DNA from: Ulota crispa
Lineage: Eukaryota > Streptophyta > Bryopsida > Orthotrichales > Orthotrichaceae
Assembly: GCA_963920765.1 (NCBI GenBank)
Contig: OY987250.1
Span: forward strand, 15,058,409-15,122,408
Reading direction: 5' to 3'
DNA length: 64,000 bases
The notes below the pieces were generated by a model. It was not told where the DNA came from. It did not search any database and saw only the letters and a list, made by a program, of their open reading frames with translations. Positions within the stretch are counted from its first letter, which is position 1, and each line of letters begins with the position of its first letter. Position numbers and translations under genes: made by a program. Positions 11,952 to 52,253 of the stretch are shown here, one piece after another.

Positions 11952-12046
11952 AATAGATAGATAGATAGATATACATATACATAGATATATATACATATAT
12001 ATCTATATATCTATATATATACATATACATATATATACATATATTT
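11952..12046. repeat. ATAG/ATAC/TATA microsatellite
   Basis: A compound array of ATAG, ATAC and TA units between the two halves of the matK relic. Simple-sequence expansion here may have contributed to loss of matK sequence. Confidence 0.9.
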
Positions 12047-27453: not shown

Positions 27454-30400
27454 TCAGACCAAGGCAGGCTCTGCTCCAAATGAGGGTTTCTGCATCTTAA
27501 TAGGAGTTCGCTGGAGTCGGATTGGGGTGGTGGACATGCCCATGTGCTGACGGGTGTAAAACTCCGAAAAGTCAAGCCGGAAAGAGAGGAACTTCAGGTC
27601 GACATGCTGTTGCACTGGCAGCTGCGCAATGAATCCTTCCAGCAATGAAGAGTATTCCACTGCAACCCCGTCCATCTCGTCTCCAAGGCTTCCTAGAAAG
27701 TCACCTGACATCTGTGCAGTGGACAATTTCCTTTGCCCTAGGCGAGACTTCGACATTGTGTCACTCTTTCCTTTCGACCTCAATGATGTCTCTCCCCTGT
27801 CGAACATCAAAAAAACATCACTAGTTATCGTATGCTCACATTATAACGAAGAAAGCTAAGGGGACATACATAATCATCGTAGGGTCTAATATCTTAAACA
27901 ACGGGTACTGCTTGATAGAAAGATTCTGACCACCTGTGTTCAGTGTTGGTTTCAGATCATCCACCAAGAAAACTTGCATGAAGTGTTCAGGTACCCCATT
28001 CTTTGATGCGTTGTAATCCTCTTCCATTTGCTAACATATAAATTTTTGACCAGTCTAAAAGAAGAACTATGCTCATCCTGCCTTGGAGAGATGTGGTTCC
28101 TTCTTAGGATGTTGCCTACCAAAAGTATTGGCTGTATTCATACGAGGACTTTTTAGTACTTGGAGAAATGGCTTCCTGGCAAATGTCAAAAATTCCCCAA
28201 AAAATCCTAGTTGACTAGTAGTATGTCTATGACTTGGCTTAAAATTTACAGCTCCAATAGGATTCATGTGCTACCCAAACACCCCGTCCGTATACAACAC
28301 AAGAGAGCGTATACTAATACATAAACATCCTTTAGGGGTTAAAAGAAATTGACATGTGTCAAATAACTATTGGTTGCAACCCATGGAACAGTATAGGTGG
28401 CACAGATTAATTTGATATCGCAAGGCCAAGTGTCGAACTTGCCAGGGTATGTGCACTCTTCACATACAATTGCAACAAGTAATAATATCCTGCTGAATTC
28501 CAAATGAGTAAGTAGAGAAGCGTACCTGGTTTGAACTTCACGAGCATTCTCGTATAGCCTGTCTGCTAGGCCTCTGAACCGCAGGATGAGGTCGAAGAGG
28601 CTGAAGAGCGTCTTGCAAAGCAACTGAGAGCGCTCACCCAACAGAGCCTTCTCCAGAATGGAGCCCAAGTACTTGTCGTGGGCAGCGATCAATTCGTCAA
28701 GGTCATGGGCCTCTTCCATCTCTTCCAGAAAGTTGGACCAAGAGTACTCCAGCACCTCAAACATGATGTAGTACTGAAGGTTGGTCACAAAATGGTTCAT
28801 TTCATTGCGCAGGGTCTGACACCGCTTGAGCACTGCGGTGAGCTGAGACTGCCCCCCACCTTCTTTGTTGTTGGACCACAAGCGAGCGATCATGCAGTTG
28901 GGCTTCATGGTCTGCCAGGTTGCACAGAGCGCATGCTCCACACGCTTCAGCCTCCAGAGAAAATTAAACACTTTCAGGTACTTGCCCATCACTTCTTCCG
29001 TGAAAAGTGTCGTCAGTGGCTCTCGAGCGTTGTATTCCAGAGAAAAAACATCCCATCCTCTGTCACCATCGCTGTGCGGCATCATGCGTACCCTCAATCG
29101 GTCGAGGACATCTCCGTCATCGTACTGGGCATTGGACGCTCGAACTGCGCTCTCCAAAGTCCCAGACAGCTTGAAAGAGCTTAAGGTGTTGGCTGGTTGC
29201 GCAAGCTCTGGTCCCACCAGATCCATCAAACATTGTATGAAATCACCTTGCCCCAAAAGGAGGTACCTCTTTATGGCCAAACAGTGTTCCGGAAATCGAT
29301 ACCTGGTAAAGCAAAGAGTTTTTCAGCGAGGTACTTCTCATAAGGTAGCAGCACCCCATAACCGTCAAATTAAGGGTTTTGAACATGATGATTATTAATA
29401 AACTTCTACCAAATTATAGGATCCTATTAGCAAGAGAAAAATGATGAGTTTGCACTTTCGAATGTATTATTTGGATACTGTGAGAATAAGTTGTGAATCT
29501 TTATAGAGCCAACTGCAATTGCACCTAATACCAACACTTAAGTTTCATGTTCACATGTTGTACATCCTTGTAATTACATCTATTCACTTCCACAGATTTT
29601 CCAAGATTTTAGAGGTGATGGTTATGGGTACAGTGATGGTTATGGGTGTTGCTACCTTACTAGCCAAAGTCAATTAGTAGCCAAAGTCAATTAGTAGCCA
29701 AAGTCAATTAAAAAAAAGGTACAGAAGGGGAGGAAAACAAGACCCTCTTCGAGAGAAGCAGAATTTCAACATGCATATAGACAAAGGTAGATAGAAACCA
29801 GACAAGAGATTAAATCTAAAGGAAAACACTTAAACAGAATCTTGGTACTCCCTTAACCTGTAAGTGCCCAAACACCATGCTTCATATCGATAGGAGTTGA
29901 AATGAGGCAACTACGAAGGTTTGAGGAAGATAACAAAATGTGTCAATAAAAACATGCAAACTTACGCTATATTTTTGAGCTACATAATATGCTTGAAAGT
30001 TACTATAATCGACTATCATCTTCCAAAAGTGGACCTTCATTTATTAACTTCGACATTTATGGGCTAAGAAACAGATAAATTATATATTACAATACCTTTT
30101 ATACATGATTTGAATGAGGTGTTTGTCAATTCGGCCAGCTGCTTCGGCAACAAGAGCCTCCAGCACCTCAATTTCACCATAGCCAAGAATACCGCCGCTG
30201 GCAGAGGCTCCAGCGGCAGCGACTGCTTCGGAGGCAGCTTGCGCCCATCCTTGGTCGGAACAACAGACTCGAAGAAAGTTGATGGATTTTCCTGTCCTCA
30301 AAATACGTTGAGCTAGGGGTTCAGGAATAAAAGACGGAAGCATAGTAGTCTGGAGTTGATAACCCTCCCGCCAAAGTCCTTCTGCCTTCACTGCCCGGGC

Positions 30401-33400
30401 CGAAACAAAAAACTCTCCATAGTAGTCATCAATCTCACCTTCAAGTACCCACCTACAGCAGTTACAAACAAAGACACAAAATTACACGATATCCTGAATC
30501 ATAACAGCTTGGTAAGAACAATAATACAACGTAAAATGACAAAACATACAAGAGCCCTATAAACCCCTAAAGGATGTTGCCCACCAAAAGTGTTGTCTGT
30601 ATTCATACGAGGATCATTTAATAATAGAAGAAATGACAAATGACAAAAACTCCCCAAAAAATCCTAGTTGACCGGTAGTATGTATGTGACTTGGCTTAAA
30701 ATTTACAACTCCAATGCAATTCAGGTGCTATCCAAATACCCATCAATACACAACACGAGAGAGAGTATGCAATACAGCGACGTCATTTAGGGGTTAAGAC
30801 ACTAAGGTTAGTTGTACAAGAGATCTGAAACTAGGAGCGTGATGTAACAACTTCTTAAAATTAAGAGTTTGGAACATGATGATTATTAATAAACATCTAC
30901 CAAATTATAGGATCCTATTAGGAACAGAAAGAATGAGTTTGCGCTTTCGAATATATTATTTGGATACTGTGAGAATAAGTTGTAAATTTTTAAAGAGCAA
31001 ACTGCCATTGCACCCATAACCAACACTAAGGTTTCATGTTCACATGTTGTACATCCTTGTAATTACATCTATTTATTTCCACAGATTTTCCAAGATTTCA
31101 GAGGTGACGGTTATGGGGACACTAACGCATATGGGTGTTCCTACCTTAACGCGTGCTATAACTTTTTCTTCTACAAGTCATACATTTTGCAAATTTAAAG
31201 AACTAACCTACCTCCGAACCATTTCAAACAGCGGTGAGCAGACTTGGCGCAGAAGACGCCTCAAGAAGGCTCGGACCAAAGGGTCTCCATGTTGAGCGTG
31301 CATGTGTATGGCCCCCGCCATCGCTCCACCTCGCAACGTTTTGCAGTCATCCACCAAGACAGCCATCAACCGCATCCTGACCAACGGCTCCCCGAGCCAC
31401 ACCACCAACCTTCTCAAGGACAAATAGTTCCCAACAGAATTTGCAGAGTCGGCTGCAACCATCAAGGGAATGGGATGATGGACCTGACCCTCAAGTACTG
31501 CCATCAATCTGTAGTAATCTGCCAGCTCTTCTTGAAGAGCAGCACAGAACGCTTGACCCACTGTCCCTATCGCTTCCAGTGGTCCGTTTTCAAGGCTCTC
31601 CGAAATGTGGTTCTTGACTCGCAAGTACAACCATCCTACTTCGCAAAGCCGCCGCACTAGAGTTCTTGTAGATTTCGGCACCTTGATGGATTCATCAATC
31701 ATGTATCCATCGGCATCTTTGTTGAACTTCACATAACGGCCATCAATGCCCTGGCACGCATATAAGACATCCCGGACTATGGCCATCTCCGAGACATCTG
31801 ATTCTGATTGAATGATCTCTAAAAACTCTCGCATTGCAGAGGCCTTCGCGTTCCCATCATCTTTGGTCAAAACGAGCACTCCACCGGGAGAACTTGGTGA
31901 TTGTGCGCGTGAAGATTGTGACCAAGTTTGAGGGGTGTTACCATTCCTAGAGGAGTAGGATCTGCCTGGCGATACATCAGACTCCGTTCCATAGCTCGGG
32001 AGCTTAGGGTGCGTTGTATTGGATGGAAATGCAGGAAGGCCTCCGTGAGCCGCTGCACCTGAAATACAACACGTTTGAGCTCTTGCTTTCGAGTTCAAAT
32101 AACCAAATTGTTAAGGCAACTAGATATAGTAAACACGAGATATAATAAACACGCCTCTGCACGTAGTTACTCTAACATACCTACAAGGTAAAAGTTCGTC
32201 ACACAAGATAGTTCCATAAGATTCTGCAGTCCATGATTAAATGGATTGAGTCACGAAAAAGGGAATCAATTTTCATACAATGCAAACCAAAATGACTTGC
32301 AATCATTCAGCACGGTTGGTGTCAGGTTAGAGTGTGTGGTAAGAGCATCTCCTGCAACCCTCCAAATGTCTAGGTCCCTTCAATTCCTCTCTATCACATT
32401 TTAGAGGGAATAGCCACTTGTATCCCCAACAGTACAATCCGCTAAGTATAGTGCCAACCAATCACAAGTCAAGGAAGTTTCAAAAGCAATATAGTTAGCT
32501 ATGACCACAAGAAAGGTTTGAAGACCCCTTCAAATAAGCCATATTTGAAGGGGGAAGGTAAATGTAACTGTAGAGGCTGCCACCACTAGAATTGATTGCT
32601 TTTCATACAGATTTGAGCGGAGGGCCTGAAAATTTGGAGTGTTGCAGGAGACGCTCTTACTGCCACCCACCAAATGTTCAGGCCCCGCTCCTTTATGGAT
32701 GGAAGCAATTAATTTTAGTAGTGTTGGCCTCTACATTTACCTCCCCCCTTCAAACAAGCCATATTTGAAGGGGGGCTCTAAACCCTCTACAAGCTATATT
32801 TTATGCTGATCATAGTTTAGTTTATTGCTTTTGGAAGTTCTTTGACTTGTGATTGGTTGGCACTACACTTCGCGAGTTGCATTCTTGAGGATACAAGTGG
32901 CCATTCCCTCTAAACGGATAGAGAGGAATTTGAGGGCCTGAACATCTGGAGGGGTTCCAGGAGACGCTCTAAGTGCGCAAAAAAGGCAAAAACGTGTGAA
33001 ATTCCGAACCTAGTACAGCGCATGAGATTTTTTGCAATTAAAGTCAAAAATATAAAAAAGGAAGAAAGCAAAGAAACGAAAGGGCTTCAATATCAACCTG
33101 AGAGGGTGGACGTATACGGAATTGCGGTGCCTCTAGTTTCCGCTCGTTCTCTTCGTTGGTCTTCAGCAATGGCGCGAAGGAGATATAACAATGCCCATCG
33201 ATTTTCAATAGAACCAGGCCCGCTGTAAGACGATAGCCTTCTGTGCAAATCCGCAAAGCTGAGGGCGTCAGCGGACCTGTTCTCTTGCACTAGTTGTCTC
33301 TTGATCGCTTCCGCCATTGCAGATTCATCGTTCGCAAGTGACGGCGCAATCCGACTCCCAATGATCCGCATCGCGTACTGGTGCGCCCGATGCAGAGTCG

Positions 33401-33527
33401 CATCCCCCTGTCGTTTCTGGTGCCCCCCGCCATTTTCCACACCTCGACTCCCACTCGGAAATATCCGCACCGCAAGCTGCCACACTAAATCTGAGACCGC
33501 GTCTCCTTCCATCGCCTCTCCCTTCAC
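27454..33527 (-). CDS. GCP3: Gamma-tubulin complex protein 3 (GCP3/SPC98)
   Basis: GCP3 is a core subunit of the gamma-tubulin small complex that nucleates microtubules. Five exons join in phase: 33527-33098, 32058-31212, 30452-30096, 29302-28526 and 27796-27454, giving 917 residues; from memory Arabidopsis GCP3 is somewhat shorter (about 840). Exon 1 (residues 1-143) is the helical N-terminal domain (GPGSIENRWALLYLLRAIAE), the region reported to bind GIP/MOZART1. Exon 2 carries RDVLYACQGIDGRYVKFN, FCAALQEELADYYRLMAVLE and GGAMAGAIHMHAQHGDPLV. Exon 3 has ILRTGKSINFLRVCC. Exon 4 has AIKRYLLLGQGDF, then SGDRGWDVFSLEY and RNEMNHFVTNLQYY. Exon 5 ends DLKFLSFRLDFSEFYTR. The introns hold several mobile elements. 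No frame damage is seen. A second copy of exon 1 and upstream DNA lies at 47285-49150. Confidence 0.95.
28100..28338. mobile_element. Short TIR element (family F) in GCP3 intron 4
   Basis: The body matches 30563-30793 over its length (shared CTGTATTCATACGAGGA, CCCCAAAAAATCCTAGTTGA and TGACTTGGCTTAAAATTTAC). The right end is TTTAGGGG followed by TTAA; the left end is decayed. It is non-coding. Confidence 0.7.
29350..29680. repeat. Intron 3 segment duplicated from or to intron 2
   Basis: From AACATGATGATTATTAATAA at 29379 to AGAGGTGATGGTTATGGG near 29628 the sequence closely matches 30870-31120 in the same orientation, including the GAATAAGTTGT and ACATCCTTGTAATTACATCT landmarks. No terminal inverted repeat was seen, so this could be an intron-segment duplication or a member of an unseen repeat family. 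Confidence 0.75.
30563..30793. mobile_element. Short TIR element (family F) in GCP3 intron 2
   Basis: The ends read CCCCTAAAGGATGTTGCCC and the complement of CGTCATTTAGGGG. TTAA follows the right end; TAAA precedes the left. The CCCCTAAAGGA terminus is shared with family B, suggesting the same mobilising transposase. The TTAA target preference is the habit of piggyBac-like elements. About 230 bp, non-coding. Confidence 0.7.
30840..31150. repeat. Intron 2 copy of the duplicated intronic segment
   Basis: Partner of 29350-29680, in the same orientation, separated from it by exon 3 and the family F element. The match stops before exon 2. Confidence 0.75.
32340..32974. mobile_element. Foldback MITE (two joined units) in GCP3 intron 1
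   Basis: The left end AAGAGCATCTCCTGCAACC is mirrored at 32641-32660 (GTTGCAGGAGACGCTCTTA) and again at 32953-32973 (GTTCCAGGAGACGCTCTAA). The two ~320-bp halves are inverted copies of each other, sharing CCCCTTCAAA..AAGCCATATTTGAAGGG. It looks like a MITE of about 320 bp joined to an inverted second copy. It lies entirely within the first intron and is non-coding. Confidence 0.75.
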
Positions 33528-34750
33528 TAAATCACACCAATGCCATGACCTCGACTCTCTCTCCCCTTAACAAGACCAAACTCTTCCGCCATATACAATC
33601 ACTCGCCGCTCTAAATGCCTCCACTAAACGTTTAAAGAACTAAACCCTAGGTGAACACAATAGCAATGCAATCAACGAGAGAGAAAAAGAAAAGAAATCC
33701 ATTGCTTCTTACTATAACACACCAACCTACACTTTCTCCCATTGACAAAAAGTAACACTCCGCCTCACACGATCACTCAAGGCCCTAAGCTCACGAACAG
33801 CCGACATTCACCAGCGTTCTATCAAAGCACTTAGAAAACCTAAACCTAGTTGACTCCAACAGTAGTGAAATCAAGGTAAGCGAGCGCAAAATGTATTGAT
33901 TGTCTCAGACGCTATACACCGCAGTACTCTTCTCATCCTCCACACCAAAGCCAAGACCTAAACTGATCGCAGCCTAGTCCGCCATAAACAGAACTCGAAA
34001 TGCACAAACAGGCTACAATCACTAAGCTCCGAAGAAGCGATGCAAAGATCTAAACCCTAAGTAGAGTGTAACATTAGTTGAAATCAAGGACAGAGCGACC
34101 TAGTCCGCCACATAAAGAACTCGAAATGCACAAACAGGCTGTAATCATCAAACTCCGAAGAAATGGTTCAAAGATCTAAACCCTAAGTAGAGCGTAACAA
34201 TAGTTGAAATCAAGGACAGTTTAAGAGGGGAAAAGCACATTGCTTCTACAACTGCACAGTACTCTCTTCTCATTCAACTAGTCGGAGCTGCCAGTGAGAG
34301 TTGCAAGCGAGCTTGAAAACTAAGTGACGCAGATCTCGCATTGCCAAGTGCAGAGTGCGTTGCAGAGCGAGGTTTGAAACTAGAAAAAAATTGGCCAAGG
34401 CAGAAGGCGAGGTTTTCTTGTTTGAAATAAATACCGTGAATGTGAGCTCGCATGTGATGATCCGGGAGTGGCAAGAGGCGACTTGAAGGTAGAAATGTCC
34501 GGCATGCCGGAGTACAAATTCAAACACTCGCTCCGCTCCGCTCCGCTTGCGAGTTCGTGTTCCTGCGGCGTTTGCTTTGCTTTGATTCAGCAAAACCACG
34601 CTTCTCACACTTCGTCGTTCTCATCTTTCCCCTGCCTCGCCGGCAAGCGGCCCGGCACGCAGCCCGGCACGGGCTGCTCCCGCGGTACTGGCGGAACTAA
34701 TTTATTTTTGAAATTTTCAAATAACTTTCGGACCAAACAAAAACTACTCT
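33528..34750 (-). promoter_or_regulatory. GCP3 upstream region with telobox-bearing repeats
   Basis: Immediately upstream of the GCP3 start. It has a telobox-like AAACCCTAG near 33643 and two ~125-bp tandem units (starting near 33978 and 34100). Each unit contains ACTCGAAATGCACAAACAGG and ATCTAAACCCTAAGTAGAG. The part near 34540-34690 is locally GC-rich (TCCGCTCCGCTCCGCTTGCG, later GCCCGGCACGCAGCCC), unlike the AT-rich surroundings, as expected of a promoter or first-exon region. The transcription start cannot be placed. The whole block is duplicated at 47830-49150. Confidence 0.6.
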
Positions 34751-34756
34751 AAATAG

Positions 34757-34800
34757 TGCATTTAGGTTGCCCTATGCTAGCTTCTTGACATTTTGAACTA
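34757..34800. mobile_element. Family D terminus next to the GCP3 5' region
   Basis: AGTGCATTTAGGTTGCCC followed by TTCTTGACATTTT is the end found also near 38276, 46996, 51424 and (reversed) 51380-51417. Only the end of the element is present; it is cut off by the family C-like sequence that follows. Confidence 0.6.
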
Positions 34801-35340
34801 AACCGGTAGGATCACCCATTCCCAATCGTTTACCCCAAAATGATCCTGGATATTCCTGAGCTTTTAGGAATTTGCTTTGATTTGAACATAAAGCCATAAA
34901 AGTTGTATCAAATTTTTTTAAATTGTAACCATACAAAATCAAACTAGACATGTTAGAGATCGCATTACACAAAAAAACATATAATGTTTGATCGTGAGGG
35001 TGTTAAAACTGTAAAAGTGATTTGAAGTTTTTAAATCTTCTATTCACATGTCAAACTTAAAAAGTTGGTCACCAAAAAAATATGAGGTTAAAGGGCCTAA
35101 CATGCATAACCCCAATCAATTTACAACTTTTCAAAATCTACTCTACAATTCTTTTAAATGAATTTTTATTGTGATTTTTTCTTAAGGATTTAGTGTATTT
35201 GAGGCTCACTCCCACGAGCCCTCAACACTACATAAAGTCAAGATTGCAATGAACACCCATGCACAAAATCTTGAATAGAAAAATCATAATCAATCATTTG
35301 CAAAATCAGATTATTGAAGCTAAAACTAAACCTCAAAAGG
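34800..35340. mobile_element. Family C element, diverged copy
   Basis: Parallels 55830-56230 in the same direction. Shared landmarks are ATAATGTTTGATCGTGAGGG, AAAGTGATTTG, the GTGTATTTGAGGCTCACT block and TGCACAAAATCTTGAATAG. The termini are not preserved. Confidence 0.65.
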
Positions 35341-37490: not shown

Positions 37491-37865
37491 TTAAAAAGGG
37501 AAAAAATATGCATTCCAAGGCTTCCAAACTAGGTTGGTTGAAAACAACACACCCTAGAGGTTGGGAATACCCTGGTTGGGAATGGGTGGCTCTACCTTCT
37601 GTTAATTTGGAAAAAAAATAATATGTACCTGCAATGTGCAGGAAAAATTGGCAGCTAGTTTAAAGCTGGAGGAAGTAGAAAATAAAATGGTTACATTTTG
37701 AAATTGCTAGCAAAAAAAATAGTCAGATTTTATTTTAAAATCTAAATATAGTAAGTTAGAGTATAAATTTAGAAACATAGCCGGTTCATTATGGCAATAA
37801 ACCGACTAAGTACAAAAAATGCTAGATTTTAGCTAGTAAAGTCCAAAAAAATTTCAAGCATTGGA

Positions 37866-38275
37866 TAACACTAAAGTTGCCATATTTGTATAGATACCCT
37901 TAAAGTTTGCCATATATGTATAAATATCCCTAAAATTTTCATATATGTATAGATACCCTTGTTGTTTGTCATATGTGTAAATATTCCTTTTGTTATATAT
38001 ATGTATAGATCTCCAAGGTTTTTCAAAATTGCACAAGTATCCTTGGACCACAATTTTCAAGTGTTTGTTTTATTGTGCGCACTACTTCCTCCATGACGGA
38101 TGTTAAAGTAAGAAGTGCATGAGAACAAAATAGAGGCAGCATGTACACACTAAAGAAAGAAGTGGCATGCACAATAGAACAAGTGCTTAAAAATTATGGT
38201 CCAAGGGTATTTGTGCAATTTTTGAAAGCCTAGAGGTATCTATATAGATATGGCAAATTTTAGGGTTATTAGTGT
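37866..38275. mobile_element. Foldback element related to 2540-2866
   Basis: The inverted halves share TCCTTGGACCACAATTTTC and its mirror AATTATGGTCCAAGGGTA, with TGTTTTATTGTGC inside, as in the copy in the amine oxidase intron. The left arm has extra repeats of a ~35-bp GTATAGATACCCTTA unit (37880-38010). Confidence 0.7.
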
Positions 38276-38903
38276 AGTTAGTTTGCCCTACGGTAGTTTC
38301 TTGACATTTTATACTATATTAACATTAAACAGAGACTTGATATTTGTACTACACCCTTTCAATTATTTTACCACACCTAATGTACATGGCCAATATTTAT
38401 GGTATTATAATAAGTGTGGACCATGGGTAGAACATCATGAATTTGAAAATACATAGATTTTTTAATTGATACAACAAGTGGGATTTGGAATTGAAAAAAA
38501 TAGTTGAAGTGGCAACTTCTATGTCAGGTTGTACCTTCATATTAGTGATGTTATGTTTGTGGTTGACACCTACTATAACATAAATATGGCCATATATAGT
38601 AGGTGTGGTAATATAGTCAAAAGGGTATGTGGTACAAATATCAATTCCCTATTTACTAATATCACAATAAATTTCATCAAAAATGAGTGCAATAATAATT
38701 TAAACATTGATCAGGGCTTGGCAACAACAATAACTAAGTGTACAAACAAACTAGTGGCATCTAGGTTGTAAACCATGTGAAATCTTAATTTCTAGAAGAA
38801 TTACATGTGCCTCCAAGTGGCCAAGGAATGAGTCATGAGGTATCATTTAGGATAAGGCAACCCAAGTGTTGAGGCAACCTAGATGCACTATTTAGTGTAC
38901 TAA
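38276..38903. mobile_element. Family D element
   Basis: The left end is GTTTGCCCTACGGTAGTTTC then TTGACATTTTATACTA. The right end is GAGGCAACCTAGATGCACTA. About 620 bp, ending in the GGCAACCTAAATGCA-type terminal repeat shared by copies at 46996-47283 and 49152-51417. Non-coding. Confidence 0.65.
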
Positions 38904-39150
38904 TATTGCAATAATTTTCATCATTAATTACTAGAATGACTAAATTCTTAACAACAATAAGGATTTGGCAACAACAACATTGTTGTGGAAAGACACACTA
39001 GCGTTATTTAGGCCACAAAGCACATGAAATACTAATAATTAGAGAGTTGCATGCAGCTTCAAGTTGCCAAGCAATGAGGCATGAGGTAACTTTCCAAGGT
39101 AAAGCAACATGATTGTTAGGCAACCTAAATGCACTGTTTAGTGTAGATTT
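38904..39150. mobile_element. Family D 3' fragment in tandem
   Basis: A second right end, AGGCAACCTAAATGCACTG (39122-39140), preceded by the same ATGAGGCATGAGGTAAC block as the neighbouring copy. Confidence 0.6.
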
Positions 39151-39360: not shown

Positions 39361-40240
39361 GGTTTTTTTTTTTCATTTTTTAAGAAGTGTCAAAGTGGCA
39401 ATTTAAAATGTTAGAGTGGTGCTCCAAATTTCAACATTCATCCCACATATTGGATAGAAAATACTCCCTCTATCCCAATATAAACCTCCTAAAAACTTCT
39501 CCACAAGGAATTAATTGTATTGTTAGTCATTATGCTAGTGACAAATGCATTCTAGAATCAATATACCACCTACCAAATATGTCCAAAATTTCAGGTTTTT
39601 ATGTTGTCATTTAGACACCCAAACTCCATGCCAAAAGTACCAAATTTGTGCATAATTTGTTGAGGCTAGTGGCTCCTCATTATTTTAGCTTTTGAAATGA
39701 TGACACATGCATTCTAGAATCAATATACCATCTACCAAGTGTGTGCAAAATCTCTTGCTTTGATGTTGCCATTTGGGCACCCAAGTTCCATGCAAAAAGT
39801 ACCATATTTGTGCATGTTGTTGGCTCCTCATTATTGATGATTTAAAGATTAGTAGCAACAATGGTACGTCATATGGGCAAGGCCAAGCTTGTTAGGAGAG
39901 GAATGTTCTTTAATTACTTAACTTGCCCCCATGAGATCATTGGACATGACAAACGCTTTCTCAAGAATTGAAATTAGCAAAAGGGAGCTTTTTAGTGGGA
40001 CAAGAATTATGCCTAATTTTGATCTTTATATTGGGACAGAGGGAGTATCACACTAGCACATACTACATGTCTATAATTTGGTTTTCATCCACAATTTGGC
40101 AATTTCATACAAGACTTTTCTTTTTTAATTTGAAGCTTTTCTGACGATTTCATCCAAGTTTTTTGGCAAATTTTCTGACATTTTTTAGCCACATTTTTTT
40201 TGGGTGCAATTGAGCACCAAATCGCCACAAAAAAAATGCT
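39361..40240. repeat. Host repeat of MITE copy 3 (matches 49223-49500)
   Basis: Flanks of the MITE at 39464 match an uninterrupted stretch near 49230-49370: AGTGTCAAAGTGG, GTGGTGCTCCA.ATTTCAAC and TTGGATAGAAAATA before, then ATCACA.TAGCACAT and GTTTTCATCCAC after. It is probably family D internal sequence. Confidence 0.75.
39464..40045. mobile_element. Stowaway-type MITE, copy 3 (full length)
   Basis: The ends read CTCCCTCTATCCCAATATAAA and the complement of TATTGGGACAGAGGGAG, flanked by TA at 39462-39463 and 40046-40047. The interior contains a duplicated module (ATTCTAGAATCAATATACCA near 39548 and 39710). It is the best-preserved copy in the window. Confidence 0.88.
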
Positions 40241-43166
40241 GACCAAAGTGGCCACAATTCATGAAGTGATTTTGCAAGTAAGCTTACATTACCCAATTAG
40301 AAAGTGTGTTAAGAATGCATTGCTTATTTTGAAATGCATAATGTGCATGCGTCGTTAGGGTTGTGGAGTGGGTTCACGCTATGGGTTAATTGACAATAGT
40401 TCATAGAGAATCGCTTCGAAAGAAATCTGCTCAAGAGAGAGCGTGCTGTGAATTTTGGATAGAGGTATGTCACTTTGCGCAATTTAGTGTCACAACTTTT
40501 GAATTATCACTTGAATCTTTGCCATAATCTCAAATATGCAAATTCGTTATGAGTGAGTTCAAGTGGGAGAGGGTGAGAAACAAGACTTCATTGTCACTTC
40601 TTAAATTGCCGTTTGAACATGTGTGGAAAGCAAATGCCATTGTGTTGAGGAATCTGCACTAGGGTTTCTGCTAACTCATGTGCCTGTCCACGGAAGAGCT
40701 TTGAGCAGCAGGTATCTCATCTTGGAAGGCGATCTATCTCCATGACTTAGTCAAGAAATTCTCCTAGGGATTTCTGTCTGATGAGAAGCTAGCAATCATG
40801 AGCGATGACGAGCTGGTGACGGCGTTGACAACGGTGAGATAAACATTAGGTTCAATGTGGTCCTGTTGGTAGTGTAGGAGTTAACATGTTGAAGCTGCAC
40901 TGGGTTTACGCTGAGTTTTTGTTTCAAAATCCTTAATTTAGAACATCAAAAGCTAGGCTGAGAATCGCAATGAAAGGAAATGGAATGGAATGAAAAATGA
41001 ATCCTTCGTTTACATTCATCCATGTTTGCTTAGAACACACACTGCTTGCACCAATTATTGACTTTGTCCATGGTCTTTGTCTTCGCAAGTTGGACAAATT
41101 TTCTAAGGTAGGAGGAGGTTTGTCTCTTTGGTTTGTAGAACTATCTGTAACAATAGAGACATGCCCGGTTTATTCAAGGATCACTTATTTAATTCGTGCT
41201 CACTCGACGTGCTAACTAGTCCTTAGTACTAGCAGACAAGATTGGGTCCCTAGTGCTTTCAATACCCTGTACCTCAAAACTATGAACAGTATGGAGGTTC
41301 TAAAACTTTTAACATGTTATTTTTTTTTGTGACAGGCTACAGATGAAAGGATAATACCTATTACAGTGGTGCCTCGATAAGATCCGGACACCATATTCAT
41401 TTCATGTAAGGAAAACATTCATTGTAACCAAACACATTTTTTGTAGCTCCCCAACCACCAGGGACAGTCATCTCCTTCATCTTAGCTGAGCGTTTTTTCT
41501 TATAAAAGTTCACCTTAAAGAGGCACTACTGTATGTGGATCTGGTTTATAGGGAGTAGTACCGTTGTCTCTCGCTCAGGAGATCGTTGAAGCAGCTCGTG
41601 AAGGAAGATCCCTCCTTGTAGGTTATTCCTGTCTCCTGCCAAAGCTTCTATCAGTATTTATAGTTGAGTATCTGGTAAATGGAGTTGGTGCCACACACGG
41701 GAGGCTGCTCAAAGATTGTACTTTTCAAGGTTGCAGTATGGTTTCCTAGTCCCACTTTTTTTTGAGAGATTTTGGTAAAAAGGTGAACCCAGCAGAGATT
41801 AATCAGTTTCCAATGAGATAATTTGATAGTAAAACTAGTTACGGTTTGCCAAACTTGAATGTTGCAGTGTTGTGTGAGCATCCACATTCTAAAGTGTACA
41901 GCTATTGTACATTCAACCTCAATCCCCAAAGTTAAGTTAGTCCAGGAGATTTTCTGAGAATGGGGTCAGTAGTCTGCTTTAGTATAGTTTTCATTACCAG
42001 ATTGAAATGTGGGTACTTTGGTGGATACTTGAAAGAAAAGTGGCATTGGAAGAGATCTCGCATGATAGCTTGACAGTTGTGCCTATTTACATTTATTGCT
42101 CCATGTACGTCAAACTCCAAAACCTGATAAAAGTGACCAATGGCCACGTCGTAAGATTCAGGTCTCAAAATATTCTCATCGATTTGCTGCTACGAAAGGC
42201 TTCATTCCTAATCAGAGTTTTGATGAGAAGATTCTTTTGAAGTCTACCAGAATTGTCTGTAAGACATCATTTAGTGGTGGGGATTGTATGATCGAGTCGC
42301 TTGTCAATGGCTTAATTTATTTACAGCAATTGCGTTATGTAGAAGTTATCAATATGCAGCTTCAGAATTCAGTGCGTCGATGTACTTACAATCTTGTCTT
42401 TTAGTAAGGTAAGGTTCCATACGAGCTGTATGAAGGACACTATTGGCGGTCTTTAGTGTTTATGTACTAGAATTTTCTGTCCACGTCGGCGAGCTATTTT
42501 TTAGATTTTTGAGCCCTTGTCGGGGTGTTGGCAGCACTGTCAGAAATAACTCAAAGTGCCACCAACTTATAGTTGTGAGTGGAGAGTTAGTCTAAAATTT
42601 GAACCTTTGCAATAATGTTTATCCTTTCAGTGCAATTAGACGATTGCACTGCACCCAATGCGCATATAGCAGTGGTTGTCGTTTCCATTCAACGATTTGG
42701 ATTATGGCTTGCTCTTTAGCCTTTGTGTGTCTCGTGTAATGTACTTTCTTTGCTTCTAATTATACTTGTCAGTTGTTGAAGCTCCACAGTCTGTGGCCTA
42801 CGCTAACTAGTGTAAGGTGTTGCATGCAACTCTTTTAGAAGATGAGAACTGGTCAGAGTAAGTTGGTACCACTGCAAGATGACAATCGAGCCAGCTTCTT
42901 GTAGACGAGAGTCCTGGTGCCAGGACGCCAGATTTGAGCAACCCTTCCAAGAGAGTGTTCCTGCACAGGTGCCAGCGTTGTTGCTCCTACCCATGTACTT
43001 TGTGGTGAGGGTTGGTACTCTACATGAATAAGCTAGTCTGGTAGAATGGGGCGACGGACAGGGGAAGACAATAAAAAGAGCGTTGGGAGCATTAAACAGC
43101 TAATTCTTAAGGAAGTCATTCATGTCAATGACAAACGCACCTGTAGGGTAGACCAGCTGAAAGGCA
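40241..43166. other. Upstream region of the DUF688-type gene; unassigned exon-like pieces
   Basis: Base composition becomes less AT-rich and gene-like after about 40400. Short plausible coding pieces occur, such as MSDDELVTALTT ending at a GTGAG donor near 40834, and LAQEIVEAAREGRSLL near 41567-41616. I do not recognise them and could not join them into one frame. They may be upstream untranslated exons of the gene at 43167 or relics of another gene. Confidence 0.35.
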
Positions 43167-46064
43167 ATGGCGGAGAATTGCCTCTTTCCTTCCAAAGGTA
43201 GACCTCATCTCGGTAGCAAAGCCAATGATCTGGACGTTGATCATATATCTGTAGAACCTAGATGGCCGCTGAGCAGCCAAGAGAGTGGTTCTTGGGCCAG
43301 TAGCTTCCGGTTTGAACTAGAGAGTGACAGTGGCGAGAGGTTGCAAGCGATGTTGGAGCAAGATAAGCACAGCTCTGCAGGTGAAACAAATGTAGGGAGA
43401 AAGCTCACCAATCTTTCGAGCTTGACGAACCTAGGCACTTTTGAAGGTGGAAGTTTTCGGTTCATAGGAGATGTTGGAATTGAGGAGTTTCGTACTGAAT
43501 ATGAGCCTCTGAAGTCGCATAGGCAATCGGGCTCTTTAAGGTTTACCACGGTATTTAGTGCCAACGAGAAGCAAGGATACGATGCTGCAGAATCAGGCAA
43601 TAGTTTGAATATCAGCCACTCTCACGTCAAAGCCGCCGTGAATAGTCATGTTACCGCCTCAACGAGGAATGAGGTTCTACAAAGACTACGAGACTTGAAG
43701 GCTCACCCGTTAAGCCCAAGGTTTTCTCCAGAGGATGCTGCAAGCTGCCAGAAAGAGAAGGCCAACGTTGCTGCCGTAAGGGATGACATTCATCAGAGGC
43801 TGAATCCGTTGTTGAAGAACAAGTCTTGTCGCAGGAAGAGCGCCGGCACTATCAGCCAACATCATTGCACACTCCCAGAGGGCGTGCTGAGCGAGTTTGA
43901 GATCATGGAGATCAAAGAGAGGAGACGACTGAGTTTTAATTCTCCATCTGAGCTCCAAGGTAGTTCTCGGAGAGCTCCACAGCCCTCATCAATGCACTTG
44001 ACTACTCCAACATCGAGATTCAGAGATGACAAACACAAGCTGCATGGCGGATGCTCCATACAAGAAGAGATTGTTAAGCAATCACAAAATGTGGAGAGCA
44101 TTATCAACAGCCCTTCTCCTGATCACATTCTTTCCAGACCTGTTGCAATTCCATTCAAGTGGGAGGAAGAACCTGGTAAGGCCAAAACCATAGCAGCGGC
44201 CGTAGATCGTGCAATAGCTCGGAGACTACCACGAGATGGGATGGATTATATGGAGTTGCAATCGTGTTTGCAGAAAGGTGCTGTCAAGTCTTCTGTTGAA
44301 ACTGGGAAAGGAATCGGACCAGATGCGCCGGGACGAAGTTCGCCGAATTCTAGCATTGTTGATCAGCGGAGTGGCAGCCATAGATATTACAGTAGAGAAT
44401 ATTTGAGAGGGCTTTCAAGAGAGGCGAGTTTGAGAAGGTCTAGCAGAAGATATTCTACTAGTGAGAAGGAGGTAATCATTGACCTTGATGGATCTGCAGC
44501 TGCAAAATTCTTGGTAGAGGCGTTTGAATCACCTTCTAGATCACACGGCTCGTCGCCCACATTTGGTGTGCCTTTCAGGTGGGAGGATGCCCCTGGGAAA
44601 GCCAAAGCGGACACGATAGCACAAAGACCTTACAATGTGCTTCAGTTGCCTCCTCGGTTAGCTGTCACTTCACTTGGTAAATCCGAAAGCTTCTCGTGTT
44701 GCGAGCATAGGATTTCATCTCCGTTCACTGGTTTTTTCCTGCCCTGTTTGGCAGCGTCAACGCCGGCTCATCGAAAGCAGATCACTCCATGTAAAAATCT
44801 GCCTCCTAAAGTACCCAGTCCACCTAAGCGTCGTATTCGCCTCAGCTTGATTGGTCGCTGCAGCTCAATCCCCAAAGAAGGATGCCAAGTCAGAGTGTCA
44901 AAATCCAAAACCTCAAGCCACATCAGCACTGAGAAGTTGTTCATCAAATCTCCGCTGACTCCGGCTCGACAAGCCAGAAATATGTCCACCTCGGAGCTGA
45001 AAAGTAAACCCAACACACCTTCATCACCTATCAGCATCTTGTTCGGTCCTGACAAAGGCAACATCCAGACTTCTGGGTCGAGTATCATGTTTTCAAGTGG
45101 GGATCTGGAAGATTTCACTATATTGGCGTCTAAGTCGAGTTCAAGCACTTCGTACGAAAATGCGGAGGAAGATTTTGCAGAATTTCCTCAAGCTGCAACA
45201 ACGACATCGGCTGAAGACACTGGACTTCTCAGCAAGCGGCGAGGTTCAACATCGAGAGGTTATGCTAACAACGAAGGCGAGCCTCTTATTCTGGAAACCT
45301 TGCCTACAGTTCAGTCAGAGGAGACTAATACGAGCCGTGAAGTCTCTCCCAAACGTCCTTCCAGGCTTCCTTACAAAATGCCTGTTGTTGCAGAACAACT
45401 TTTGATTTCGAGCAGTTCTTCCGGCAGAAGACAACTCCTTCAAGACTTCAGTCCCCCATTACGGCGCCATGCAGCTGGAAAGCGGCTCTCCGGGAGCCCA
45501 TCCGTTACCAAAACTCCTTACCGACCTTTAACCTCTCCTAGCCATGCGAAGGCTGTGTCTCCATCGCCAGCACACACTGCCTCCTCAGAGTATTTTCCCC
45601 TTGCTGCAAACCAGGGGCGCAGAGGGCCAGCGACTCCCAAGACACTTGTTCCCAAGTCTCCCCCTGCCAGACTACGCCGACGCGTCCGACTCATGGTGAG
45701 TATGAGCGTGTTCTTTTCATACACAGTTGAATATCTTAAGGGTGAAACCCTTTGTATTCTAACCTCTTAAAGGACCAAGGGGCCTTTTTTGGTGTAGGAA
45801 TTTATGCTTCTCTTTTTTGTGTACACCAATTTGTAAGAAGTTCAACGCATGCTTAAACAAAATACAGTTTAGATTTAAGGGAATATCATATGCGCAATCT
45901 CATATTCTACTAACACAGGAGTTCCTGGAATTTTTTTTCAGTCATCAATCCTCAAAACTTTGAAGCGCGCTCTCAGCAGAAAGAAACGACGTCGCAGACG
46001 AAGTGAAGCAATGCTCACGCACTTCGAAGATAAAATACCACGTTTCAAGACAACCTACACCTAA
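43167..46064 (+). CDS. DUF688-type plant protein with paired PFKWEEEPGK motifs
   Basis: Two coding exons, 43167-45695 and 45942-46064, join in phase (ATG|GTGAGT donor, TTTTTCAG acceptor) to give 883 residues. The protein is Ser/Pro/Arg-rich and mostly disordered-looking. Two copies of a short conserved motif, IPFKWEEEPGKAK (about residues 328-340) and VPFRWEDAPGKAK (about 468-480), mark the plant DUF688 group, whose function I do not know. A middle part reads GFFLPCLAAS. The second exon encodes ILKTLKRALSRKKRRRRRSE, a strongly basic stretch that could act as a nuclear localisation signal. The start is the first ATG of the long frame; a noncoding 5' exon is possible. No signal peptide or membrane segment was seen. 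Confidence 0.85.
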
Positions 46065-46995
46065 GGTATGAACATTTCATTCCTTTATAACTCTCACGTT
46101 CCCTATACCAAGTCACGGTAACACATAATATTGTCGTCATTTGGTTTTTAAATCAGCCACGTTTTTCAATCTTTGTAAGTGTACGTACAGCTTACGAATA
46201 GAGATTTCAAAACAGAGCCGAACTAGGCAATCAAATAACGTAATCGAAAAATTGTATGAACGAGATATTTTGTTTTCCGAGAACACTATAAATCTCTATG
46301 TGATTCTCTTCTTCGTTAATCTCAATTGTGAATCAAATACCACTTCCCTCAATCGTCTTATTCATACTTGTGGCGATGTATTTTCCTTGCAGTCAAAGTT
46401 GAGGGCCTAAAGAACCTAACTGCATAGCACATACAGGTGTCTTGACTGTGGAGAGAGATTAGGTCGTTCTCCTGCAGCTCGTACACAAAACCTATACTAG
46501 CAATTGAAAAATAGTAGCGTACACAACAGTCAATTCTAAGATTTTAGCCCATTCTTTGACACAGCAATTGAAAAAGCGTACCTGGAGTTTAGATATGCGG
46601 ATGCCGTTGCGACTGGTGACATGATAATGTTAGAGAGGTGTGCAGCTTGCCTCTGCAGCCGAGCTTGTCAATTGTGTTGAGCGCAATTCCTTACTGTACA
46701 ATGTAAACATTGTACCATCAAATATACTACATGAGCTATTTGTTGCTACAAAAACTTCGCATGAGCATCATTAGCTCGTAAGATTGCAAAGTGTAAGAGC
46801 GAGAGAAGGAGACGCTTGCCTGTCACTTGATGCTTGGCCGCAATTGTATCACCTGTGAGCAGAATGCAAGAGACTTGGCGAGACAGACCTGTTGCTGCAA
46901 ACTCCCCTTACGAACACATTCAAATGCCTTGCGAACTAAATTTTTGTATACGACTTTTCCTCAAACCCCTGAAGATAAATAGTACACGGAATTTT
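46065..46995. other. 3' flank of the DUF688-type gene
   Basis: Contains the presumed 3' untranslated region. No second gene, RNA or repeat was recognised before the family D element. Confidence 0.4.
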
Positions 46996-47283
46996 GCGTT
47001 AAGGTTGCCCCACACTAATTTCTCGACATTTCACACTACATATATATTTCCGGCTGATACAGTAGTTTTCATGAAAAAATACTGCAACAAACAATTTTTG
47101 AAGGGCCTGTCAACAGCAATGAAGCAGCAAAAAAACAAACTAGCGGTTCCCAAGTCATAAATCATGTGAAATCTAAGTATTTATAGAGTTACATGCGACT
47201 CTATGTGGTCAAGTGATGAGTCATAAGGTAAATTACCAGGGTAAGGCAACCTAATTGTCAAGGCAACCTAAATGCAATATTCA
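46996..47283. mobile_element. Family D element (short, ~290 bp)
   Basis: The left end is AAGGTTGCCCCACACTAATT then TTCACACTA; the right end is AGGCAACCTAAATGCAATA. It stops within a few bases of where the GCP3-derived duplication begins (GCAGCGCATGAG at 47290). Confidence 0.7.
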
Positions 47284-49150
47284 GTGTAGTGCAGCGCATG
47301 AGGTTTTTTGTAATTAAAGTCAAAATTATACAGAAAGAAAGAAAGCAAAGAAAACAAAAGAAAAGAAAGGACTTAGATATCAAGAGAGTTCTTCCACCTG
47401 AGAGGGTGGATGTGTACGGAATTGCGGTGCCTCTAGTTTCCGCTCGTTCTCTTCGTTGGTCTTCAGCAATGGCGCGAAGGAGATATAACAATGCCCATCG
47501 ATTTTCAATAGAACCAGGCCCGCTGTAAGACGATAGCCTTCTGTGCAAATCCGCAAAGCTGAGGGCGTCAGCGGACCTGTTCTCTTGCACTAGTTGTCTC
47601 TTGATCGCTTCCGCCATTGCAGATTCATCGTTCGCAAGTGACGGCGCAATCCGACTCCCAATGATCCGCATCGCGTACTGGTGCGCCCGATGCAGAGTCG
47701 CATCCCCCTGTCGTTTCTGGTGCCCCCCGCCATTTTCCACACCTCGACTCCCACTCGGAAATATCCGCACCGCAAGCTGCCACACTAAATCTGAGACCGC
47801 GTCTCCTTCCATCGCCTCTCCCTTCACTAAATCACACCAATGCCATGACCTCGACTCTCTCTCCCCTTAACAAGACCAAACTCTTCCGCCATATACAATC
47901 ACTCGCCGCTCTAAATGCCTCCACTAAACGTTTAAAGAACTAAACCCTAGGTGAACACAATAGCAATGCAATCAACGAGAGAGAAAAAGAAAAGAAATCC
48001 ATTGCTTCTTACTATAACACACCAACCTACACTTTCTCCCATTGACAAAAAGTAACACTCCGCCTCACACGATCACTCAAGGCCCTAAGCTCACGAACAG
48101 CCGACATTCACCAGCGTTCTATCAAAGCACTTAGAAAACCTAAACCTAGTTGACTCCAACAGTAGTGAAATCAAGGTAAGCGAGCGCAAAATGTATTGTC
48201 TCAGACGCGTACTCTTCTCATCCTCCACACCAATGCCAAGACCTAAACTGATCTCACGCAGAGGAGACTAGTCCGCTACATACAGAACTCGAAATGCACA
48301 AACAGGCTACAATCGCTAAGCTCCGAAGAAGCGATGCAAAGATCTAAACCCTAAGTAGAGTGTAACATTAGTTGAAATCAAGGACAGAGCAACCTAGTCC
48401 GCCATATACAGAACTCAAAATGCACAAACAGGCTACAATCGCTAACCTCCGAAGAAGCGATGCAAAGATCTAAACCCTAAGTAGAGCGTAACATTAGTTG
48501 AAATCAAGGACAGAGCAACCTAGTCCGCCATATACAGAACTCAAAATGCACAAACAGGCTACAGTCGCTAACCTCCGAAGAAGCGATGCAAAGATCTAAA
48601 CCCTAAGTATAAGTGTAACAATAGTTGAAATCAAGGACAGTTTAAGAGGGGAAAAGCACATTGCTTCTACAACTGCACAGTACTCTCTTCTCATTCAACT
48701 AGTCGGAGCTGCCAGTGAGAGTTGCAAGCGAGCTTGAAAACTAAGTGACGCAGATCTCGCATTGCCAAGTGCAGAGTGCGTTGCAGAGCGAGGTTTGAAA
48801 CTAGAAAAAAATTGGCCAAGGCAGAAGGCGAGGTTTTCTTGTTTGAAATGAATACCGTGAATGTGAGCTCGCATGTGATGATCCGGCATGCCCGCGTCCA
48901 AATTCGAACACTCGCTCCGCTCCGCTTGCGAGTTCGTGTTCCTGCGGCGTTTGCTTTGCTTCAGCAAAACCGCGCTTCTCTCACTTCGTCGTTCTCATCT
49001 TTCCCCTACCTCGCCGGCAAGCCGCCCGGCAAGCGGCCCGGCCCGGCACGCGGCCCGGCACGGGCTGCTCCCGCGGTACTTTGGCGAAAATAATATACTT
49101 TTGAAATTTTCAAAAAAAAATCAAAACTGACACATACTAAATGCTATAAG
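47258..49150 (-). pseudogene. Duplicated GCP3 exon 1 plus upstream region, with chimeric reading frame
   Basis: From about 47290 the sequence matches 33016-34750. Between about 47420 and 48190 I saw no difference from 33120-33890, including all 143 codons of GCP3 exon 1 (47827-47399). Exons 2-5 are absent. The intron 1 start differs: TCAGGTTGATATT in the gene is TCAGGTGGAAGAAC here, so the immediate stop is lost. The frame runs on for 46 codons to a stop at 47258 inside the family D element. The added tail includes FLFFCFLCFLSFCIILTLI, which could span a membrane. The upstream block has three ~126-bp telobox repeats (from about 48268, 48393 and 48519) against two in the gene. It could be a non-functional duplicate or an expressed fragment of the MOZART1-binding domain. 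Confidence 0.85.
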
Positions 49151-49557
49151 TAGTGCATTTAGGTTGTTTTACCTTGCAAAGGTTACCTTATGACTCATTG
49201 CTTGGCTACTTGGAGGCCCGGTTTTTTTTGGTTTTTTTTTCATTTTAGGAAGTGTCAAAGTGGTGATTTAAAATGTTACAGTGGTGCTCCATATTTCAAC
49301 ATTCATCCATCTACATATTGGATAGAAAATATCACATTAGCACATTTTACATGTCTGTAAGTTGGTTTTCATCCACATTTTGACAATTTCACCCAAATTT
49401 TTTTAAAGTTTGAATCTTTTTTGACAATTTCATGCAAGTAATTGTGTTATTTTTTTCTATAGGCTTGGTGCCAGTCAAAAAAAATTGGTGCAATTTTGCC
49501 CCAAATTGCCAAGAAAAGAAACCGTGCTAGTTGGAGGCACATGTGACCACCCTTTAA

Positions 49558-50494
49558 CCTCTAAAGGATCGTTGTCCATTTGAGGGACAAATGGGATTTT
49601 GGGCATGTACCTATGGCTAAACTACTTTGCGTGATTTTTTGAAACTTTTATTGAAGGTGAGGAATTCAAAGATCTACGTGGGAATGTAATTTTTTCTTCT
49701 TTCTGACATTTACTGAAGAAGTTATGCATGAATAATTGAAAAACAAGGGACTATCAGGCAGCCAAAAAAAATTTGAATTTCTTTTTTTTTGAAATTGGTT
49801 CTTTAGATTTTAATGTATTTGGGAAGCTTTGAATCTTTCAATTTTGATAGATGAGATGAAAGTTATGAGAAGTTTTAGTTTGCGGTTAGGTATGGGACAC
49901 CCAAACCTCCATTCCTTTTCCCCCTTGTAAAACTTTTTGCTTTACTTTTTTGAGCTCTTTGTGTATTTGTTTTTTTACTCTTTTTTTTCCAAGTTTTAGT
50001 AGACTAAGATTCCTTGGTTTTCACCTTTTGGATCAAAGTAATTCAAATTTCTAAATTTTACATAAATCCTCCAATTTTACCTAGTGTATTTTTAAAATTC
50101 TAGACCTTCCGGCATTGCAAGATTTTACAAAGTATGACCCACATGTCCAATTCATTTGAAAATTCTCCCACACATACCTAACATGGTTTTAGACATGATA
50201 AAAAAAACCTCAACTTTGCTTAGAGTAATTTTTTTGGGTTATCAATGGTCAAAGGCTTCTGAAAATTTTGGGCAGTAAAGAAAAAAACTTTTTCTTCAAT
50301 TTGGATGTAAATATCTCACTCCTCAACATTTAGATTGAGCTGATTTTTTCCCAAGAAGTACCTCCCATAGTCTAGGCTAGGATCCTACGGTTGGATTTTC
50401 CAAAAAAAAGTTTTTTCTTTCTATTCTACTCACTCTCCCAAAAGTGGCAGTTTTACACTGAAATTCACAAAAAAAGGCCGCAGTCCTTTAGGGG
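49558..50494. mobile_element. Family B TTAA element, copy 2
   Basis: TTAA flanks at 49554-49557 and 50495-50498. The ends are CCTCTAAAGGATCGTTGTCC and the complement of AGTCCTTTAGGGG. Length about 937 bp with the same interior as copies 1 and 3. Non-coding. Confidence 0.82.
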
Positions 50495-50514
50495 TTAAAC
50501 TTGAAAATGACTAG

Positions 50515-50901
50515 CGGGACACCCCCTAGTTGCTACGTGGACACCCCTATAGCCCAACTTATCAAATTTGAAATTATTATTACATTGAAATATGAAATAA
50601 AATCAAAACAATATTTTAGCACCCATTTGCATTTATAAGTGTTGCAAACATACAACAAATATGTCTCATTTGCGACATGGTCTCAAGAGTTAAACTTATA
50701 AATGAAGGGAGCAATTGGTTTAACTCTTGATCACGTCACAAATGAGACATATTTGTTATATGTTTGCACCTCTTGTAGACGCAAATGTGCGTTAAAATGT
50801 TGTTTTTTAGTTTTATTTCATATTTCAATGTAATGATAATCTCAAATTTAATAAGTTTGGCTGTAGGAGGTGTCCATGTAGCAACTAGGGGGTGTCCCTC
50901 T
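50515..50901. mobile_element. Foldback MITE with GGGACACCCCCTAGTTGC ends
   Basis: The arms of about 170 bp are inverted copies. Left GGGACACCCCCTAGTTGCTA then CGTGGACACC; right GGTGTCCATG then TAGCAACTAGGGGGTGTCCC. The CATATTTGTT..ATGTTTGCA blocks mirror each other near the centre. It sits just after family B copy 2. Confidence 0.8.
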
Positions 50902-51417
50902 AATCATTCCCTTAAATTTTTGGCATCTTTTTATACGAATCTTACTTGAATTTGTGATTGGCTACCATAAAACTAGAACAATCAAGGAAAACAATATGGA
51001 TTAAATTGCTAGGTCCCTCTCCAAGCAAACACAAGGTTTGCTAGAATTTGGATGAAAACTACTATTGATTAGTAAATTCTCGAGAATAAATTTTATGCAT
51101 GAACCTGCACACTTTGTTGATTTTATCCTTTTCTATCCAATTTTTCCTTACCTGCTTGCATTGTTAGAGGCATGTTATGCAACTAACAAAAAAACAAAAT
51201 TAAAGATTAAATGTGATTTTTTAGATATTAAGATTTCACATGGCTTATAGCATGGACAATACTAGTTTTTTTTTTGCAACATTGTTGTTGTTGTCAAGTC
51301 CTTATTATTATTATTAAAAAAAACTTATTGCAATAACTTTTGATGAAAATTGCTGGGATATTATTAGGTGTTTCACATAGTGTGAAATGTTGAGATCTTA
51401 GTGTGGGGCAACCCAAA

Positions 51418-52253
51418 TGCATTATTAGGTGTAGTGCATTTAGATTGTCCCGCATTTGTTTCTTGACATTTTACACTAAATATATACTTATTGATATTAA
51501 AATAAATTTCATTAATAATAAATAGAATAAATAACTTTTTAACAACAATAAAGATTTGGCAATAAAAGTGAATTATGGGAACTTCCAATATTCCCAAAGA
51601 AAACCAAAGGTATAATTTAATTGGCATTTTTGCACAAAACCAAAGTTAATTTTTAAACTTCAAATAACACAAGGGTACATTTTTATATTTCAAAATAGAA
51701 GAGCTTTTTTGATATTTTTCCAAAATACTAGGAATACAATTGATACTCCTACAAAATGTTAGGAGTATTTTTGATATTTCAAATCATTAAGAGATAAGTT
51801 TGATACATTGAAAAAAATGAAGGGCACTTATTGATATTTTCCCTTCCTTTATTGACTAGATCAACAAAAAAAATTAAAATCTCATGAATTATTTTTAGAA
51901 TCTTTAAAAAAAATTAAAAGTCTTCAAATATTATAGAATCTTTTTTATGCTTTTGAATCCTTTGAAATTTTGATTGTATAATTGCAAGGTTTTATTCCCA
52001 TAACTTTTCACAATTTGATGTTTCTTAAAACTAGCAAACCCTAGAGGCTATTAACCTAATAAAGGTTTCTTTTCAAAAAATTAGAAGTAAGCTTTTAAAG
52101 AAATGAAGCCAAATTTCACATGCAACAATCTTGAAGAGATTTATGTATTCCAATCAAAAGTTACAAACAAAAATCAAAGAGGTGGAACTAAAAATTTATA
52201 CAAAAATGAACACCCTCCTTGATTTTTGCTCATAACTTCTGAACCCCTAAAGG
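51418..52253. other. Family D fragment and AT-rich spacer
   Basis: A forward D left end (GTGCATTTAGATTGTCCCGC then TTCTTGACATTTTACAC) starts at 51434 and matches 38276 onward for roughly 150 bp. After that no gene or further repeat was recognised. Confidence 0.5.

Follow-up and report, generated by a model that had tools for sequence, protein, structure and literature searches.

The DNA analysed here is a 64-kb window (C9:15058409-15122408) of an assembly of 275 Mb in 157 contigs, which was searched as a whole. On its minus strand lies a GCP3 gene, here gene A, whose 5' module is found a second time further right in the window.

27457..33512, minus strand: GCP3 gene A, with the exon 1 ATG at 33512; extent given without modelled exon borders
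31211-32110, 30083-30481 and 28342-29322, minus strand: domain-bearing ORFs of gene A (Pfam PF17681 and PF04130)

The GCP N-terminal domain is matched by the ORFs at 31211-32110 and 30083-30481, and the GCP C-terminal domain by that at 28342-29322 (Pfam). For the C-terminal exon the best PDB match is GCP3 (2.9e-70, versus 3.3e-23 for the best GCP2), and the best PDB match of exon 1 is likewise GCP3 (8e-19). With both GCP domains present and GCP3 nearest among the solved structures, gene A can be assigned to GCP3 on sequence grounds. Exon 1 runs from the ATG at 33512 over 138 codons plus one nucleotide, given that the GT at 33097 serves as the splice donor, as it probably does. The exon resembles residues 25-114 of vertebrate-type GCP3 (the matched entry group includes 6x0u) and matches the MZT1-binding domain of that protein. 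Binding of MZT1 by the N-terminal extension or helical domains of GCP3 is described in PMC6065531 and PMC11257966; the plant side of this link is represented by titles on the GCP3-interacting proteins GIP1/GIP2 in the reference list of PMC6065531.

The first-pass annotation of this DNA had reported that the 5' module of GCP3, namely exon 1, about 80 bp of intron 1 and about 1.2 kb of upstream DNA, reappears 14.3 kb away. Self-BLAST, alignment and exact matching confirmed this second copy, which we call B, and refined its extent. Three further points had escaped that annotation: a third copy, the divergence of A and B in their flanks and middle, and an insert of about 2 kb that splits the D element to the right of B.

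33011..34744, minus strand: copy A of the 5' module
47287..49132, minus strand: copy B of the 5' module; right end approximate
47812-47398, minus strand: exon 1 of copy B, open
A 33973..34219: two copies of a tandem unit of about 125 bp (self-BLAST, alignment)
B 48259..48640: three copies of the same unit (self-BLAST, alignment)

Copy B consists of exon 1, the 5' part of intron 1 (87 bp in A, 111 bp in B) and the upstream region, of which about 1.23 kb is included in the duplicated module. Homology between the two copies extends from A 33011 / B 47287 to the tip of a transposon-like element of family D, described below, at A 34745 and at about B 49133; in the main tract the offset is 14,300 bp. 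Repeat counts differ between the copies, as stated at first pass: the 125-bp unit is present twice in A and three times in B, and a single time in the third copy, C, described below. No homology was detected between A 27000-33030 and 40000-47300 (E up to 0.1); B therefore has exon 1 only, without the body of GCP3, and, with the GCP domain exons absent, it does not qualify as a full GCP3 gene. A tandem duplication of the entire 14-kb unit was considered and rejected, because within the window the DUF688-type gene that separates A from B has no match other than itself, and the DNA flanking it on the 3' side matches the genome once. Further A-B homology to the right (34913-35367/55811-56294 and 36565-37373/52238-53038) was also discarded as evidence, since both stretches fall in repeats, for each of which at least 40 places were scored and the first look gave thousands of candidates.

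A consensus for family D was built from 12 copies selected for an exact motif at both ends; it is 306 bp long and runs TACACCAAATAGTGCATTTAGGTTGCC...GGCAACCTAAATGCACTATTTGGTGTA. The 13-mer at the tip, TGCATTTAGGTTG, has 2423 + 2403 exact copies in the assembly (4,826), versus 1 + 0 for a reversed control. Among the selected copies, TA stands at 17 of 24 tips and at both tips of 5 of the 12. Family D is thus short and abundant and has terminal inverted repeats (about 27 bp), as MITEs do, and we regard it as a MITE-like element. TA-flanked MITEs include Stowaway and Tc1/mariner types, which D resembles in general features only, i.e. its length of about 306 bp, its terminal inverted repeats, the frequent TA at its tips and its thousands of exact tip motifs.

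How are the D elements placed around the two copies? The motifs that the first-pass annotation had recorded at the borders occur where it had placed them, and the original copy is indeed followed directly by a D end. Alignment to the D consensus gave the following arrangement.

34745..34800, plus strand: left end of a D element, truncated, directly right of copy A; high-copy repeat from about 34829
46983..47288, plus strand: complete D (aligned to consensus 1-306), its right tip abutting copy B
49142..49216, minus strand: D(-) to the right of copy B, first piece
51211..51433, minus strand: D(-) to the right of copy B, second piece, beyond an insert of about 2 kb (49217-51210)
51432..51621, plus strand: D(+) without its first 9 bp or so, abutting the outer end of D(-)

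The motif GGCAACCTAAATGCA at the left border of B is the right-hand tip of the complete D that lies further left (46983-47288), and TGCATTTAGGTTG at the right border is the tip of the D(-) further right. The block is thus located outside both elements and is faced by the outer tips of two separate Ds. This orientation bears directly on the Pack-TE style of capture suggested at first pass. In such a model a D element would have picked up the GCP3 5' module, enclosed it within its terminal repeats and brought it to the B locus. Pack-TYPE and Pack-MULE elements carry gene fragments within the tips of DNA transposons. Copy B is like them in being a gene fragment with transposon tips at its edges, the left one coinciding exactly with a D end. 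It is unlike them in lying outside the elements, with only one edge clearly at a tip: both interiors point away from the block, which is the opposite of the Pack-TE orientation, and each tip belongs to its own D (consensus 1-306 on the left, two pieces on the right), so that the fragment does not sit between the terminal repeats of one element. TA stands only at the D ends, and as a target-site duplication around element plus fragment such a 2-bp sequence is uninformative. We consider such a capture extremely unlikely. The inverted repeat 47199-47231/49183-49215 was also tried as the terminal repeat of one large element and rejected, since it represents the same end of two opposite D copies.

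On the left, the homology to A ends exactly at the TA of the D (47287-47288; A 33011-33012). The DNA left of 46983 is single-copy, with one match in the genome, lies downstream of the DUF688 ORF and has no homology to A 27000-33030 (E up to 0.1). On the right, the 9-bp stretch 49133-49141, left of D(-), resembles the start that is missing from the D(+) at 51432, which suggests insertion of the D(-) into another D. The claim that D ends bound copy B is therefore borne out exactly for the left edge and qualified for the right. Boundaries lying off D ends had been named at first pass as evidence against its reading, and of the two edges only the left one clearly coincides with such an end. Copy A is adjoined on its right by the first 56 bp or so of a D(+), followed by the high-copy repeat.

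Could the two inverted Ds and the block between them have moved together as a composite transposon? Such a macrotransposition would draw on the fact that both flanking elements are essentially complete and inverted, and that the left junction is the outer end of a D with single-copy DNA beyond it. However, the D(+) on the right lacks its first 9 bp or so, and the remnant that this model predicts left of 46983 is not there; copy A has no D at 33011; and a similar 9-bp stretch is found inside, left of D(-), although this last point is weak, since 13 nine-mers out of 1830 in the block are just as similar to the D start. Taken together, we judge a composite transposon to be unlikely, though less so than capture by one element.

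The exon 1 protein and the DNA of B, used as separate queries against the assembly, led to the same three places, A, B and a third copy, C, at C9:13300716-13302259, 1.8 Mb away. Copy C sits in a near-full-length copy of GCP3, with BLAST matches that span A 27753-34660, and its reading frames are broken in several exons: a stop at codon 45 of exon 1, a loss of about 413 bp from exon 2, a 1-bp deletion in exon 3, and a stop together with a 4-bp insertion in exon 4. By these lesions, C is a decayed near-full-length GCP3 pseudogene. In the assembly search the C-terminal exon was located only at A, where it is open, and at C, where it is broken, and A is the sole copy found with both exon 1 and the C-terminal exon open. 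The pseudogene (G000:C9:13300716-13306267) is broken, yet it shows few amino-acid changes in its open parts, and constraint on it seems to have ended only fairly recently. Parts of a hairpin-like inverted repeat in intron 1 of A, adjoining exon 1 (32342-32970; 75.8% over 660 aligned columns), match C also.

With C as a third sequence, the A-B comparison revealed two tracts of complete identity.

A 33115..33898 = B 47415..48198: identical tract 1, 784 bp (exact matching)
A 34194..34428 = B 48615..48849: identical tract 2, 235 bp (exact matching)

The longest exact match between A and C is 89 bp. In the alignment, A and B show no substitution within the tracts (0/777 and 0/235). Outside them they differ at 20/109 sites in the intron flank (33009-33117), at 1/51, 6/136 and 14/122 sites, with indels besides, in the stretch of tandem units that separates the two tracts, at 3/47 and 8/141 sites upstream of tract 2 (34429-34662), and at 18/95 sites beside the D tip (34663-34757). 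The contrast between 0/1012 differences in the tracts and 52/581 outside gives a Fisher p of 3.7e-24, for segments that were picked post hoc, with the 18/95 segment excluded and one denominator trimmed against overlap. Among 109 ungapped variable columns at 33009-34662, C is the odd one out in 72, A in 19 and B in 16, and in 2 all three are different. The longest run in which A equals B comprises 41 variable sites and was reached in none of 20,000 shuffles (maximum 28); once it was removed, a second run of 15 was likewise reached in 0/20,000.

This mosaic, and above all the run of 41 that no shuffle attained, argues for a recent conversion between older copies rather than for one recent capture. 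Significantly long identical tracts between diverged paralogues, here the runs of 41 and 15, are what ectopic conversion leaves, and the tracts very probably arose in this way. Constraint alone does not explain the identity, because inside the same tracts C differs from A at 41/779 and 14/207 sites; at these 55/986 sites C differs from both A and B. The rule of three puts the A-B distance in the tracts (0/1012) at less than about 0.3%, or roughly 5% of that between A and C (55/986), and by these distances homogenisation of the tracts can be placed much later than the split of A and B. This explanation needs two tracts, or else one that is patchy.

The first-pass annotation had left the choice between a recent event and gene conversion. 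The identical tracts inside diverged sequence speak for the latter. A recent date suits the conversion but not the duplication, since outside the converted parts the divergence of B from A is much the same as that of pseudogene C from A. In the three flank segments A is odd at 16 sites, B at 12 and C at 13. The copies are about equidistant there, which suggests that B split from A at roughly the time of C, and these counts favour no particular branching order. A single recent duplication of A with edges that diverged by later mutation would account for 784 and 235 identical bp; it is contradicted by the confinement of the differences to the flanks and the middle, seen in both the Fisher and the permutation results, and by the insertion AAGAGAGTTCT and several bases that are common to B and C and absent from A. 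We therefore give it next to no weight. An assembly or polishing artefact is hardly more credible as the source of the identity: all three copies were read from one assembly and tract 1 does end at an indel on one side, but the tracts end at substitutions too, and the flanks and tandem-unit counts of A and B are so unlike that long reads should separate the two.

Which copy was the donor? Because the flanks of A, B and C single out no tree, the direction is argued from selection. In exon 1, A and C are separated by 16 changes at 101.7 synonymous sites and 4 at 312.3 nonsynonymous sites, one of the four being the stop of C itself, whereas A and B differ by 2 synonymous changes, both at the tract edge, and 0 nonsynonymous ones. 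In the other parts compared, A and C show 10 synonymous and 6 nonsynonymous changes in exon 2, 21 and 3 in exon 4, and 0 and 3 in a short part of exon 3. Thus, the exon 1 that A and B share bears the mark of purifying selection, which favours A as the donor; provided that conversion took place, it probably ran from A to B. The reverse, in which sequence of the fragment replaced the 5' part of the working gene, is consistent with the flank distances, which cannot tell donor from recipient. However, a non-functional fragment should have brought amino-acid changes with it, while the 16 synonymous versus 4 nonsynonymous changes point to a constrained lineage. We consider conversion from B to A rather improbable.

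In sum of these comparisons, copy B is likely to be an older GCP3 copy, situated outside the D elements, in whose core ectopic gene conversion has recently replaced the sequence, the working gene A being the most likely donor. We speculate that B was once longer and was trimmed from an old GCP3 duplicate by a D-associated rearrangement, which is the most likely origin of the fragment. Exons 2 onward would have been lost when a D in intron 1 recombined with one past the 3' end, or through another D-associated break, with a single complete D remaining where the ends joined. The left border is most simply read as a break or recombination at D. The full scenario of a longer B cut in this way is possible, at somewhat short of even odds. 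A deletion between two Ds has left no direct trace, for only a TA flanks each D and no remnant of a GCP3 body was detected at B. A duplication that was partial from the start and was joined at a D would be equally compatible with the sequence.

For the right border, we suggest that the D(-) inserted later into the terminal repeat of the D(+), perhaps one inherited by A and B alike. That the D(+) piece beside A and the one beside B descend from the same element found no support in their similarity, which is no higher than among other D copies: it amounts to 0.80 between the two pieces, against 0.71-0.82 between the A piece and 11 other D copies and a mean of 0.845 among those 11. Perhaps the two pieces do share an origin, as judged by their position and the 9-bp stretch only. 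In view of this similarity and of the nine-mer comparison, we lowered our estimate for a later D(-) insertion into a D(+) inherited by both copies from reasonably probable to slightly better than even.

Ectopic, or interparalogue, gene conversion has known examples in GOT1 of Tigriopus and RPP8 of Arabidopsis, as far as the portions used of PMC3728101 and PMC6771003 describe them. The present case is like them in having identical tracts between otherwise diverged linked copies, and unlike them in that the partner B is a 5' fragment only and that the tracts extend over the first coding exon and the DNA upstream of it. A limited set of search terms returned no direct parallel in the open-access literature. 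The conversion event itself is of an ordinary kind, and it is its details that are instructive. An apparent transposon capture becomes a clear case of conversion between a working gene and its own fragment, with a third copy as the yardstick, and it illustrates that the tips of an abundant family of MITE-like elements can pass for Pack-TE borders if their orientation goes unchecked.

Does copy B have a role of its own? Its exon 1 is open, and reading through into the intron yields 184 residues, i.e. 138 residues of GCP3 and a 46-residue tail derived from the intron, with the stop inside the D element. A putative stand-alone interaction-domain peptide is therefore a possibility. With the upstream region of GCP3 and an intact exon 1 retained, B might be an active mini-gene that conversion holds close to GCP3 in sequence; its product, consisting of little more than the MZT1/GIP-binding domain, would compete with full-length GCP3 for MZT1 and thereby tune microtubule nucleation. 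This strikes us as a long shot. For an incomplete plant gene duplicate in which a protein-interaction region is retained there is a precedent in HvARM1, a partial duplicate of HvPUB15 in Triticeae with a demonstrated role in barley, according to the part of PMC6092874 consulted. In that account HvARM1 has experimental support for its function, in which it differs from B. If B were expressed, it would represent a naturally isolated GCP3 interaction domain and offer a direct test of whether this domain alone can regulate microtubule nucleation in plants. Any transcript of B would approach the DUF688-type gene, which lies on the opposite strand, from its 3' side.

That neighbour is an 869-residue ORF between A and B (43161-45767, plus strand) with a DUF688 match at 2.4e-5 and a single-copy 3' flank; DUF688 is plant-specific, and this ORF together with a MatK_N ORF in the window suggests that the DNA comes from a land plant. 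Further D elements are present at 38270-38326 with 38650-38899, and at 38909-39145; they are arranged head to tail and one is split by an insert, so that in this region D elements nest in and beside one another. Two repeat families occupy 34829-35447 and 36565-37495; for each of them at least 40 scored places were about 80-90% identical along most of the length. An Rfam scan of the 64-kb window returned 0 matches at the gathering score. Further left, a 231-residue ORF (5786-6478, plus strand) resembles the C-terminal end of the Amino_oxidase family (4.8e-14), and a 192-residue ORF (12014-12589, minus strand) matches Pfam MatK_N at 1.7e-50. The latter is a plastid-type matK fragment in a 19-Mb contig and perhaps a nuclear plastid insertion.
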